From positions 1-44,674 of the forward strand of contig JBDLIA010000019.1 in NCBI GenBank assembly GCA_039715185.1: a stretch of DNA of 44,674 nucleotides. The letters run 5' to 3'. Positions 22,542-26,883 of the stretch are shown piece after piece. The translations under genes and the position numbers were made by a program. The first letter of the stretch is position 1. Each line of letters starts with the position of its first letter. The DNA is from Gemmatimonadota bacterium. GTDB lineage: Bacteria > Gemmatimonadota > Gemmatimonadetes > Longimicrobiales > RSA9. The notes below the pieces were generated by a model. The model ran no database searches, was not told where the DNA came from, and saw only the letters and a list, made by a program, of their open reading frames with translations.

Positions 22542-23000
22542 TCAGTCCTCGATTCCGGCCAGTTGCCGGATTCGTCTTTCGATCGACTTGCGTTTGCGGG
22601 CATCCCTCAGGATGAGAAGAATGGTGTCGTCCCCCGAGATCGTTCCCAGCAGCTCCTTCCAGCCCTGCCGGTCGAGCGCCACCGCGACGGGCTGCGCTCC
22701 TCCCGTCAGCGTCTTGATGACGACCAGGTTGCCGACGCCATCCACGCCTGTGAAGAGCGCGGGCAGCAGCCGCTCCAGGGTGGGCTTGGGGTCGCCACGG
22801 CCGGGTGACGCCTGGTAGGTGGACCCGCCCTCGGGAAGCGGGACCTTGGCTACGCCAAGCTCGCGCAGGTCCCGCGAGAGCGTCGTCTGGGTCACCTCGA
22901 AGCCGCGCTCGGCGAGTAGGTCGCGCAGCGCTTCCTGGGAAGTCACGCTGCGGGTCCGGATCAGTCGCAGTAGAGCGGCGTGGCGATGCGCCCGACTCAC
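22542..23000 (-). CDS. argR: Arginine repressor
   Basis: ArgR binds arginine as a hexamer and represses arginine synthesis genes. The 152-residue protein has the usual size. Its N-terminal winged-helix domain (residues about 1-70) contains TSQEALRDLLAERGFEVTQTTLSRDLRELGVAKV. The C-terminal oligomerisation and arginine-binding domain contains GVGNLVVIKTLTGGAQPVAVALD and the hallmark GTISGDDTILLI. The GTG at 23000 gives the canonical N-terminus; upstream in-frame starts would add an unusual arginine- and cysteine-rich tail. It is on the same strand as the arginine operon but separated by the peptidase and membrane-protein genes; the likely operator is at the argC promoter. Confidence 0.94.
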   Translation of the reverse strand: MSRAHRHAALLRLIRTRSVTSQEALRDLLAERGFEVTQTTLSRDLRELGVAKVPLPEGGSTYQASPGRGDPKPTLERLLPALFTGVDGVGNLVVIKTLTGGAQPVAVALDRQGWKELLGTISGDDTILLILRDARKRKSIERRIRQLAGIED

Positions 23001-23126
23001 CGTCGCTTGGGGGGGAGGGTTCGCAGGCGCTGCGTCATGCGGTCTCGCTCGTTGTTGATCGCACGGACAACCGACCGGTGGGCGGGCGTGTCCTACACAA
23101 CCGACTCCTCGAACGCGGAACCTAGC

Positions 23127-23933
23127 ATGACGCAAAAACGCACGACAACGGCGGCGCTGCTCCTCCTCCTCGCCGGCACCGGTTGCGCCGCTTCGGCGCA
23201 GGAGCCGGCGCCCGACCTCACCGACAACTCCGGCGGCGCGGAGGCCGCCGCCATCGAATCAGCCGAGCAGCTCGTGCGCGCCATGCACGATCGCTACGCC
23301 GACTCTTGGTATCGCACGCTCTTCTTCAAGCAGACCGTCATCCGCACCCCGCCCGAAGGCGAGCCGCCGCCGGACGAGGTATGGACTGAGTACATGACGC
23401 TGCCCGGCCAGCTCCGCATCGACCTGACCGACGGATACAACGGCAGCGGCGCGATCTTCCGGGGCGACAGCACGTACGTGTTCCGGAACGGAGCGCTGGC
23501 GGTCGTGCGCGATCAGCGAAACGCGCTGCTCGTGCTCGGCTTCGACGTCTACGCGCAGGAGCCCGAGGTCACGCTGGAGATTCTCGGCGGCATAGGCTTC
23601 GACCTGTCCGTGCTGAGGTCGGACACCTGGCAGGGGCGGCCCGCCTGGGTGGTTGGGGCGGCGGAGGGCGATCTCACGACCCCTCAGTTCTGGATCGACG
23701 CCGAGCGACTGCTCTTCACCCGGCTGATCCAGCCGTCTCCGAACGGCGCGGGCATCTCCGACATCCGCTTCGACGACTACGAGCCGCTGGCCGGCGGCTG
23801 GATAGCCCCCACCGTCGTCTTCCTCACCGACGGGCGCGAGACCTTGCGGGAGGAGTACTTCGACGTCGAGGCGAACCCGGACCTCGACCCGGCGCTGTAC
23901 GACCCCGAGGCGTGGGGACCGCCGGCAGGCTGA
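23127..23933 (+). CDS. Exported LolA/LppX-like protein of unknown function
   Basis: The 268-residue protein has a signal peptide (MTQKRTTTAALLLLLAG) with a signal peptidase I site at ASA-QE. A cysteine at residue 18 is not in a good lipobox (no Leu at -3), so lipid modification is doubtful. The mature part alternates beta strands: QTVIRTPP, QLRIDLTDGYNGSGAIFRGDSTYVFRNG, PAWVVGAAEGDLTTPQFWIDAERLLFTRL and YEPLAGGWIAPTVVFL. This is the one-sided barrel layout of LolA/LolB-type outer-membrane lipoprotein-sorting relatives. The ligand is unknown. Parts of this gene are duplicated and decayed at 25081-25198. It is divergent from argR, 126 bp away. Confidence 0.75.
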   Translation: MTQKRTTTAALLLLLAGTGCAASAQEPAPDLTDNSGGAEAAAIESAEQLVRAMHDRYADSWYRTLFFKQTVIRTPPEGEPPPDEVWTEYMTLPGQLRIDLTDGYNGSGAIFRGDSTYVFRNGALAVVRDQRNALLVLGFDVYAQEPEVTLEILGGIGFDLSVLRSDTWQGRPAWVVGAAEGDLTTPQFWIDAERLLFTRLIQPSPNGAGISDIRFDDYEPLAGGWIAPTVVFLTDGRETLREEYFDVEANPDLDPALYDPEAWGPPAG

Positions 23934-23971: not shown

Positions 23972-25114
23972 ATGAAAAACGATCGCACGAGCGCCACGGC
24001 GCACGCGGCGGCCCTGCTCGCGGTGCTTCTGCTGGCCGGGCCAGCGCCGGCTCAGTCCCCCGCGCAGCCCGACGTCGACACCATCGTCGACCGACACATC
24101 GAGGCCCGAGGCGGGATCGAAGCCATCCGGGCGATCCGCACGCTCGTCTATTCGAAGGGACAATACCGGGAGGGCGATTTCGTCGGCGGCGGCAACTCGC
24201 GCATGGCGTTTCGCCGGCCCTACTACCGCGTGGTCGGAGATCCTTCGAACGCGTCCGGTTTCCTGGAGGGCTACGACGGCGGGAGTTGGGAGTGGTACGG
24301 GAATCCCGGGATCGCCATCCGGACCGTGGGGGCCGCCTCCGGGGCGACCCGGCGCGGAGCGGATTTCGAAGGTCGGCTGATCGACTATCGCGCGAAGGGG
24401 TCCACGGTCGTGCTCGGACCCGTCGCGGAGGTCGAGGGGCGCCCCGCATACCGCCTGACGCTCACCACCCTGGACGGATTCCGGCGCGACTACTTCATCG
24501 ATCGGGAGTCGTATCTGATCGTCGCGGAGCGCTACGCCGCGCCGGTCCACGCGTTCGGAGCCGCCGTCGCCACCGAAGCCCGGATGGAGGACTACCGGGA
24601 GGTAGCGGGTGTGCTCTTCCCGCACCGCTTCCGTGAGAGCGAGATACAGACGGGCCGTACCCTCAACCAGATGCAGTGGGGCCGGATCGAAGCGAACGTC
24701 GAGCTACCCCTGTCGCACTTCAGTCCCCCGGATCCCGAGCGTACACCGCTCCAGAAGGTGCTGGAGGCAATATTCGCAGGCCGCACGGACCCGGACGCCG
24801 TGCTCTGGAGCTACCGCGAGTTTCGGCGCGGCTATCCGGAGGTGGATAGGCGGGCGGGCGTGGAGATGATCGGCTTTCAGATCCTCAAGATGGGGGATGG
24901 CGTAGACGCCGCCATCCGTCTGCTGGAGGTCAACGCGCGCGACTACCCGCTGTCGGCGTCCGCTGCGTTCTCCCTCGCCCGGGCGCTGGAGACGGCAGGG
25001 TATCCGCATACGGCTGCGGCAGAATACCGCCGAGCGGTCGAACTCGACCCGGAGCACGAAGCCGCGCGGCGGGCGCTGGCCCGCCTGGGTGGTGGGGGCC
25101 GCGGAGGGAGATGA
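23972..25114 (+). CDS. Exported protein with LolA-like and repeat regions
   Basis: The 380-residue protein starts with a signal peptide (ATAHAAALLAVLLLAGPAPAQS). Residues about 30-240 resemble the same strand pattern as the preceding gene product (TIVDRHIEARGGIEAIRAIRTLVYSKGQY, LEGYDGGSWEWYG, RPAYRLTLTTLDGFRRDYFIDRESYLIVAE, YREVAGVLFPHRF), typical of outer-membrane lipoprotein-sorting relatives. The last 60 residues are a TPR-like pair ending in YRRAVELDPEHEAARRALARL. The final GGGGRGGR tail and stop codon come from a shifted frame of a decayed copy of the upstream gene, so the natural C-terminus may have been different. It lies 38 bp after its neighbour and is probably in the same transcript. 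Confidence 0.75.
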   Translation: MKNDRTSATAHAAALLAVLLLAGPAPAQSPAQPDVDTIVDRHIEARGGIEAIRAIRTLVYSKGQYREGDFVGGGNSRMAFRRPYYRVVGDPSNASGFLEGYDGGSWEWYGNPGIAIRTVGAASGATRRGADFEGRLIDYRAKGSTVVLGPVAEVEGRPAYRLTLTTLDGFRRDYFIDRESYLIVAERYAAPVHAFGAAVATEARMEDYREVAGVLFPHRFRESEIQTGRTLNQMQWGRIEANVELPLSHFSPPDPERTPLQKVLEAIFAGRTDPDAVLWSYREFRRGYPEVDRRAGVEMIGFQILKMGDGVDAAIRLLEVNARDYPLSASAAFSLARALETAGYPHTAAAEYRRAVELDPEHEAARRALARLGGGGRGGR

Positions 25115-25198
25115 GACACGCCGCAGTTCTGGATCGACGCCGGAACTGAACCCCGCGCTGTACGATCCCGACGCGTGGGGGGCGCCCCAGGGTCAGTA
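25081..25198 (+). pseudogene. Remnant of a duplicate of the exported protein gene at 23127
   Basis: Bases 25081-25142 align closely with 23641-23702 (coding WVVGAAEGD...FWIDA) but with one base lost, which shifts the frame. Bases from about 25146 to 25198 align with the last 51 bases of the same gene (coding NPALYDPDAWG and a stop). The roughly 180 bases between these blocks are missing. The fragment therefore is a truncated, frameshifted copy of the paralogous gene. Its start provides the last codons of the preceding reading frame. Confidence 0.82.
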
Positions 25199-25342
25199 GG
25201 GATCGCGCTGCCTGCTACTCGGCTCCGGGCCCTTTTTCGATGTGGAGGCGGACGACGTAAGGCACGCCGAGCGAATCGGTCATCGTCGTCAGCCCTGGTC
25301 CGACCGTCGACATGGAGTGCGTGACTTCGTAACACAAAGTAC

Positions 25343-25371
25343 TTGACGCAGTCGTGTACCCTGTGAACATT
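25343..25371 (+). promoter_or_regulatory. Promoter candidate giving a leaderless transcript
   Basis: TTGACG (25343-25348) is a five-of-six -35 box. After 17 bases AACATT (25366-25371) is a weak three-of-six -10. The ATG at 25378 is exactly 6 bases beyond, the same spacing as at the ArsR-like gene near position 1075. No ribosome-binding site precedes the ATG. Confidence 0.42.
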
Positions 25372-25377
25372 CGGTCC

Positions 25378-26883
25378 ATGATCGACGAAAGCAGGATCAG
25401 GACGGAGAGCGGCATGAAGGGGGCCGACTCCACCGCCCCCCTCGCGCTGGGGCTGGCGGCCGCGCTGGGCCTTCTGGCCGACGGCCTCTTCCCGGCGGGC
25501 CCGGAGGGTGCCGGGTTCGCCTTATGGATACTCTTCCTGGGAGTCGCGGCCGTTACGGTCGCGCGACGGGTGGACCCGGCCTCGGCCGGTGCCGTCGGCG
25601 GTTGGTCCGCGGTCTCGACGGCGGCTGCCGCTGCTCTGCTGCTCCGGGATACACCCGTCGTGATCCCGGCCATGTGGCTCGTGATGCTCGCTTCCGCGTC
25701 CATGGTGCTCTTGCGCGCGGGCGGCGTCCGGCTATGGACGACCCGGCCGGTCGACCACGTGGTGGGTTTCGCGGCCGTGCCGGCGCGCGCGGCCCTTGGC
25801 ACGATCGCTCTCGCCGTGGACGCGCAGCCACCCCCGGACTCGTCGCGGCGTCGCATCGCGGCCGTACTTCGCGGGGTGGTCCTGGCCGTCCCCCTGCTGC
25901 TGCTGTTCGGTGCGCTTTTCGCAGCCGCGGATGCGGGCTTCGAACGGTACGTCGAGAGGTTCGCGGCGTTATGGCTGGAAGACCTGCTGGCGCACCTGGC
26001 GGTCATCTTCGGCTTCGGCTGGATCGCCGCGGGCCTGCTCTCCGGCGTGCGGGCGAAGCGGCTGCCGAACCCGTTCACCGGCTTCACGCCCCCGCGGTTG
26101 GGTTCGGGCGAGACCGCCGTGGTTCTCGGGTCGTTGGCGGCCCTGTTCCTTACGTTCGTCGGATTCCAGCTCGGCTACCTTTTCGGCGGCCGCGAAGTGA
26201 TCGAAGTGACCTCCGGCCTCACGGTCGCCGACTACGCGCGCCGCGGATTCTTCGAGCTGATGGTCGTGGGCCTAGCCACGGTGGGCGTGCTGCTGGTGGG
26301 CGACGCCCTCAGCTCGGCCCGGCGGCTCTTCCGATGGCTTGCCGCCGTCCTCATCGGCTGCGCGCTGGTGATCCTGGCCTCCGCGGTCCAGCGCCTGATG
26401 CTCTACACGAACGCGTTCGGCCTGACCGTGGATCGCATCACGGCCGCCGTCGTCATGGCGTGGGTGGCAGCGGTTCTAGTGCTGTTCGCGGTGACGGTGT
26501 TACGCGACCGGCCCGGCCGGTTCTCATCCGCTGCCGTGCTCGCCGGGATCGCCGCGGTGTTCGTCCTTGCGCTGATCAACCCCGGTGCCATGGCCGCCCG
26601 GTCCAATCTCGATCGCGCCATGGCGGGCGCACGCGAGGCCGACGTGGCTTTCCTGAGCCACCTGTCCGCGGACGCCGTACCGGCGATCCTGCAGCGGGTC
26701 GACGAGCTGCCTCCGGCCGCGCAATGCGAACTCGGGCGGAGCCTCCTCGACCGATGGGGCGATGCGCCCTACGGCGGGCACGACGATCGTGACTGGCGCG
26801 GCTGGAACGCAGCCCGGTCGGCGGCGCGCCGCGCGGTTCAGGTCTCGGAAGCGCGCTTGACGGCGGCTGCACACGACTGCTGA
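25378..26883 (+). CDS. DUF4173/DUF4153-like integral membrane protein
   Basis: Starting at the ATG at 25378, the protein has 501 residues and about ten or more hydrophobic segments. The middle carries VGFQLGYLFGGREVIEVTSGLTVADYARRGFFELMVVGLA, which matches the conserved stretch of the DUF4173/DUF4153 families (an aromatic YLFGG followed by YARRGFFEL). These are polytopic membrane proteins of unknown function. The C-terminal 100 residues are soluble, with helical LDRAMAGAREADVAFLSHLSADAVPAIL and a tryptophan-rich DDRDWRGWN. A GTG at 25354 in the same frame is a possible earlier start, but it would lie inside the proposed promoter spacer. It converges on thiC. Confidence 0.8.
   Translation: MIDESRIRTESGMKGADSTAPLALGLAAALGLLADGLFPAGPEGAGFALWILFLGVAAVTVARRVDPASAGAVGGWSAVSTAAAAALLLRDTPVVIPAMWLVMLASASMVLLRAGGVRLWTTRPVDHVVGFAAVPARAALGTIALAVDAQPPPDSSRRRIAAVLRGVVLAVPLLLLFGALFAAADAGFERYVERFAALWLEDLLAHLAVIFGFGWIAAGLLSGVRAKRLPNPFTGFTPPRLGSGETAVVLGSLAALFLTFVGFQLGYLFGGREVIEVTSGLTVADYARRGFFELMVVGLATVGVLLVGDALSSARRLFRWLAAVLIGCALVILASAVQRLMLYTNAFGLTVDRITAAVVMAWVAAVLVLFAVTVLRDRPGRFSSAAVLAGIAAVFVLALINPGAMAARSNLDRAMAGAREADVAFLSHLSADAVPAILQRVDELPPAAQCELGRSLLDRWGDAPYGGHDDRDWRGWNAARSAARRAVQVSEARLTAAAHDC

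Follow-up and report, generated by a model that had tools for sequence, protein, structure and literature searches.

The locus described here raises the question of why a gene should end inside DNA that closely resembles part of its upstream neighbour, and whether a third, related gene once stood downstream. The window, that is the whole stretch of 44,674 nucleotides that was analysed (contig JBDLIA010000019.1 of assembly GCA_039715185.1, from a Gemmatimonadota bacterium), carries at this place two intact genes and a remnant, all with their features on the forward strand. Gene A (23127 to 23933) encodes 268 amino acids with a LolA-like fold and a hydrophobic N-terminus, and belongs to the family from which the remnant derives. 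Gene B (23972 to 25114) follows after a spacer of 38 bases and encodes 380 amino acids that combine a LolA-like domain (residues ~30-255) with TPR helices (~259-374). The locus lies between an argR-like gene at about 22542-23032 and a DUF4153 gene. The reading that we favour, with a probability of roughly 78%, is that a lineage-specific duplicate of A stood downstream of B, decayed by deletions, and now ends B out of frame.

The description of both proteins as LolA-like, made by the first-pass annotation from the sequence alone, is borne out by profile comparison and predicted structures, which agree. Pfam searches with A alone gave no family at E <= 1; five of the 21 aligned members of its family match LolA_like (PF17131, best E 8.2e-07), and comparison of the A family profile with the B family profile gave a probability of 95.6%. 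The predicted structure of A (pLDDT 85.5) has the LolA-superfamily entry 3buu_A as its best match (E 2.4e-08, TM 0.54/0.62), and in the model of B (pLDDT 76.7) the N-terminal domain matches 9tp6_B (E 7.7e-09) and 3buu_A (E 1.8e-08), with TPR proteins standing lower in the list of matches than the LolA superfamily. At the level of Pfam, LolA_like scores 12.5 bits on B, below its gathering cut-off of 30, and TPR_14 scores 28.1 bits at residues 332-372, above its cut-off of 23.5. The superfamily members 3buu (NE2245), 3bk5 and the Porphyromonas LolA3 (9tp6) are thus among the best matches to the two predicted folds; A and B share 11-15% identity with them, and the TPR domain is an addition of B. 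Judging by the look of their N-termini, both proteins are putatively exported, and the fold suggests that they may serve as carriers of lipids or lipoproteins.

Local alignment places two blocks of similarity to the 3' part of A at and beyond the end of B. The first, at 25078-25142, corresponds to A 23638-23703 (A residues ~172-192) and has lost one base near 25117; the second, at 25140-25199, is homologous to A from 23877 to the stop codon (A residues 251-268), with the local alignment proper pairing 25140-25186 with A 23877-23923. Across the 109 gap-free columns 93 bases are identical (85.3%), and the Smith-Waterman scores of 83 and 54 for the two blocks far exceed the maxima of 27 and 26 reached in 500 dinucleotide shuffles of gene A per block, so that the suggested alignment of the end of A with this region proved much better than one of shuffled sequence. 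The two blocks originally reported stand, with corrected lengths of 65 and 47 bases instead of about 62 and 53 and a CCG common to both at the internal join. Relative to A, the remnant lacks one base within block 1 and a further 176 between it and block 2, a net loss of 177 bases or 59 codons; the frame is shifted only between these two lesions, and block 2 lies again in the frame in which block 1 starts. The 5' part of A is absent altogether, and truncation, frameshift and internal deletion make up the disabling lesions. Read directly, the remnant has its own stop, a TAG at 25197-25199, one codon beyond the expected place of the TGA of A. At E <= 1 the remnant is the sole match to A in its own genome besides A, and no third intact copy was found elsewhere in this assembly, which is 96% complete; a promoter and terminator scan returned nothing at the remnant. 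The comparison supports the proposal that the remnant is a truncated, frameshifted copy of the gene at 23127 from which the middle has been deleted.

The end of B lies within this copy. Codons 373-380 (GGT GGT GGG GGC CGC GGA GGG AGA) are remnant DNA, as is the TGA at 25112-25114 inside block 1, and this terminal stretch at 25088-25114, which encodes GGGGRGGR and the stop, is read one frame off the former A-like frame at 25080. The claim that the remnant supplies the last codons and stop of B in another frame is accurate. At the place homologous to this TGA gene A reads GATCTC and contains no such stop, so the TGA of B depends on bases at which the remnant differs from A. The remnant had been taken to start at 25081; homology begins at 25078, and the exact join of B coding sequence to remnant is ambiguous over about 25078-25087 because the expected reading of B (A-R-L after A-L) coincides there with the sequence of A, a coincidence that would amount to microhomology at the join.

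The domain boundary of B falls close to this point. The TPR_14 match extends to residue 372 and the final predicted helix to 374. In a set of 395 genomes from the phylum, its own included, we found five others with full-length relatives of B at 40-50% identity; these can be aligned as far as B residue 370-372, beyond which both length and sequence diverge, with one (L064) stopping somewhat earlier in the tail comparison. Since the relatives diverge at about the same point, the conserved folded part of B looks complete, and the remnant-derived tail would appear to stand in for a part that varies across the B family. A deletion may well have recreated the C-terminus of B, but its relatives show no conservation beyond residue ~371 in any case.

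Whether the remnant was once part of a working gene, here called A', can be approached through its substitutions. The 16 differences from A fall 3, 1 and 12 at first, second and third positions of A codons, a bias that departs strongly from no bias (Fisher p 0.0002) and less strongly from the 1:1:2 expected of a copy decaying from birth beside a constrained A (p 0.038, with a range of 0.025 to 0.048 under other gap placements or one extra column). Because the differences lie mainly at third codon positions, A' was probably a translated gene for some time. The idea that a full third paralogue once stood here is thereby favoured in part, clearly against an absence of bias and more narrowly against immediate decay. 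The return of block 2 to the frame of block 1 could suggest residual translation, although one third of such lesion pairs would give it by chance. The copy also looks young: A shares 29 of 33 residues with the remnant, and none of 20 family members, drawn from 19 genomes (G041 contributes two; a fragment from G035 was left out), shares more than 20 of 33, so the duplication appears to be more recent than the split from every aligned relative. A full A' was not seen in the searched genomes because none of them is listed as belonging to the same genus. Duplication of a larger tandem unit, giving A-B-A'-B', was considered and rejected, as positions 25200-25380 show no similarity above shuffles to the A-B region or the A-B spacer; downstream of the remnant there is no homology to that spacer or to B.

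These same data bear on the alternatives. A full third gene need never have existed if template switching or patchy, non-reciprocal copying had placed two pieces of the 3' end of A after B in a single event, followed by non-coding drift; only two blocks remain, both short, and neither a duplicated spacer nor the 5' half of A has left a trace next to the remnant, as such an event would have it, but drift after copying predicts about half of the differences at third positions, and with 12 of 16 observed there we regard this course as unlikely. The remnant could instead be a diverged allele or orthologue of A acquired by recombination from a near relative, for which the divergence of ~15% with substitutions of a coding type would be equally suitable in the gene of a congener; however, A remains closer to the remnant than any of the 20 aligned family members, and none of the loci of those relatives has A beside B, which makes such an origin quite improbable. 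It has also to be considered that B took over DNA of the decayed paralogue out of frame and that selection maintains the resulting flexible tail, GGGGRGGR; we think this very unlikely, but if it were true, the death of one gene would have given another gene its working C-terminus. Least credible of all is that the remnant is still expressed, through a frameshift near the end of B or a start at 25089 yielding an A'-derived peptide that ends before 25197, since although the frame from 25080 stays open as far as the TAG at 25197 and block 2 has returned to the frame of block 1, in three neighbouring genes the +1 frame has open 40-codon stretches at 429 of 1017 positions, so that openness means little, and the reading between the lesions is not A-like.

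Comparison with relatives points to a lineage-specific duplication of A. Gene A is present in 11 of 145 relatives (12 of 146 with its own genome), and an A-type gene occurs in 140 of 395 genomes, own included. No B gene stands beside A in the 20 A loci of relatives that were inspected (those of the 11 relatives and nine named ones, several with short flanks), and no A gene was found near the five full-length B relatives (L064-L068) within the ~1.5 kb of flank available for each. At one locus, L050, the A-type gene itself overlaps a weak match to B (26%, E 3e-4), and an open reading frame that follows A in G006 with nearly the spacing of B proved unrelated to it. A DNA search of seven genomes with the remnant region gave short matches only, the best with E 1.5e-4. 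The first-pass annotation had seen in this locus the record of an ancient gene array; the closeness of the remnant to A over all relatives, together with the lack of any examined relative locus with A beside B, speaks against this, and an ancient A-B-A array common to relatives is not supported by the sequences compared.

Several further observations on the two families were made in passing. In G041 (L045:3852-7150) two genes of the A type, with 52% and 35% identity to A, flank one ATPase-like open reading frame, the end of which has the look of a winged helix, and in G231 (C44:3065-4384) a single open frame of 598 codons contains two A-type matches arranged head to tail and may encode a fused double LolA-like protein; duplication of an A-type gene is therefore not unheard of. 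Full-length relatives of B occur only in five genomes from other families of the class, with none among the 145 relatives, which belong to its own family and order; such patchiness could reflect horizontal transfer. A gene for an OPT oligopeptide transporter adjoins A in G002 and G006, of the same family (L047:1052-3043 and L048:5097-6872), on the downstream side of A in one genome and on the upstream side in the other; none was noticed beside A in the window, and a functional link between the transporter and gene A is possible.

Under the favoured reading, a lineage-specific duplication would have placed a copy of A downstream of B, giving the gene order A, B, A', and this copy would have been translated for a time before it decayed. 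One deletion would then have taken away the original end of B together with the spacer and the opening ~171 codons of A', so that the two genes were fused out of frame. A second, of 176 bases and joined at the CCG common to both sides, would have cost A' its codons ~193-250; a single base would also have been lost from A'. Both the order of these steps and a route through microhomology are inferred. Since then the last eight codons of B would have come from A' DNA, followed by a TGA present only in the remnant sequence, and B may have kept its function, given that the TPR helices stop close to the join.

Pseudogene remnants are left by the decay of nearby duplicates, and the present remnant resembles them in its truncation, internal deletion, one-base frameshift and close similarity to an intact neighbouring copy; it differs in that it also gives another gene its last codons and stop. 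The shift of stop codons is treated in PMC4161906 and reportedly by Vakhrusheva et al. (2011), and de novo protein C-termini by Andreatta et al. (2015; PMC4494051). As in those phenomena, the new terminal codons of B come from DNA that did not formerly encode that gene. The abstract of Andreatta et al. describes the loss of a stop codon in yeast and flies, which differs from the present case, in which a deletion join would have been responsible and the donor DNA would once have been coding in a different frame. The case thus belongs to known kinds, namely pseudogene decay, stop-codon shift and de novo C-termini, and is an ordinary product of duplication and deletion that leaves current views of mechanism and function as they are. 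It offers a clean single example of how the deletion and decay of a duplicate may move the stop codon of a gene and add to it a tail from former coding DNA that is now translated in a different frame, and its main practical value lies in the caution that it advises when gene ends are annotated beside pseudogenes.
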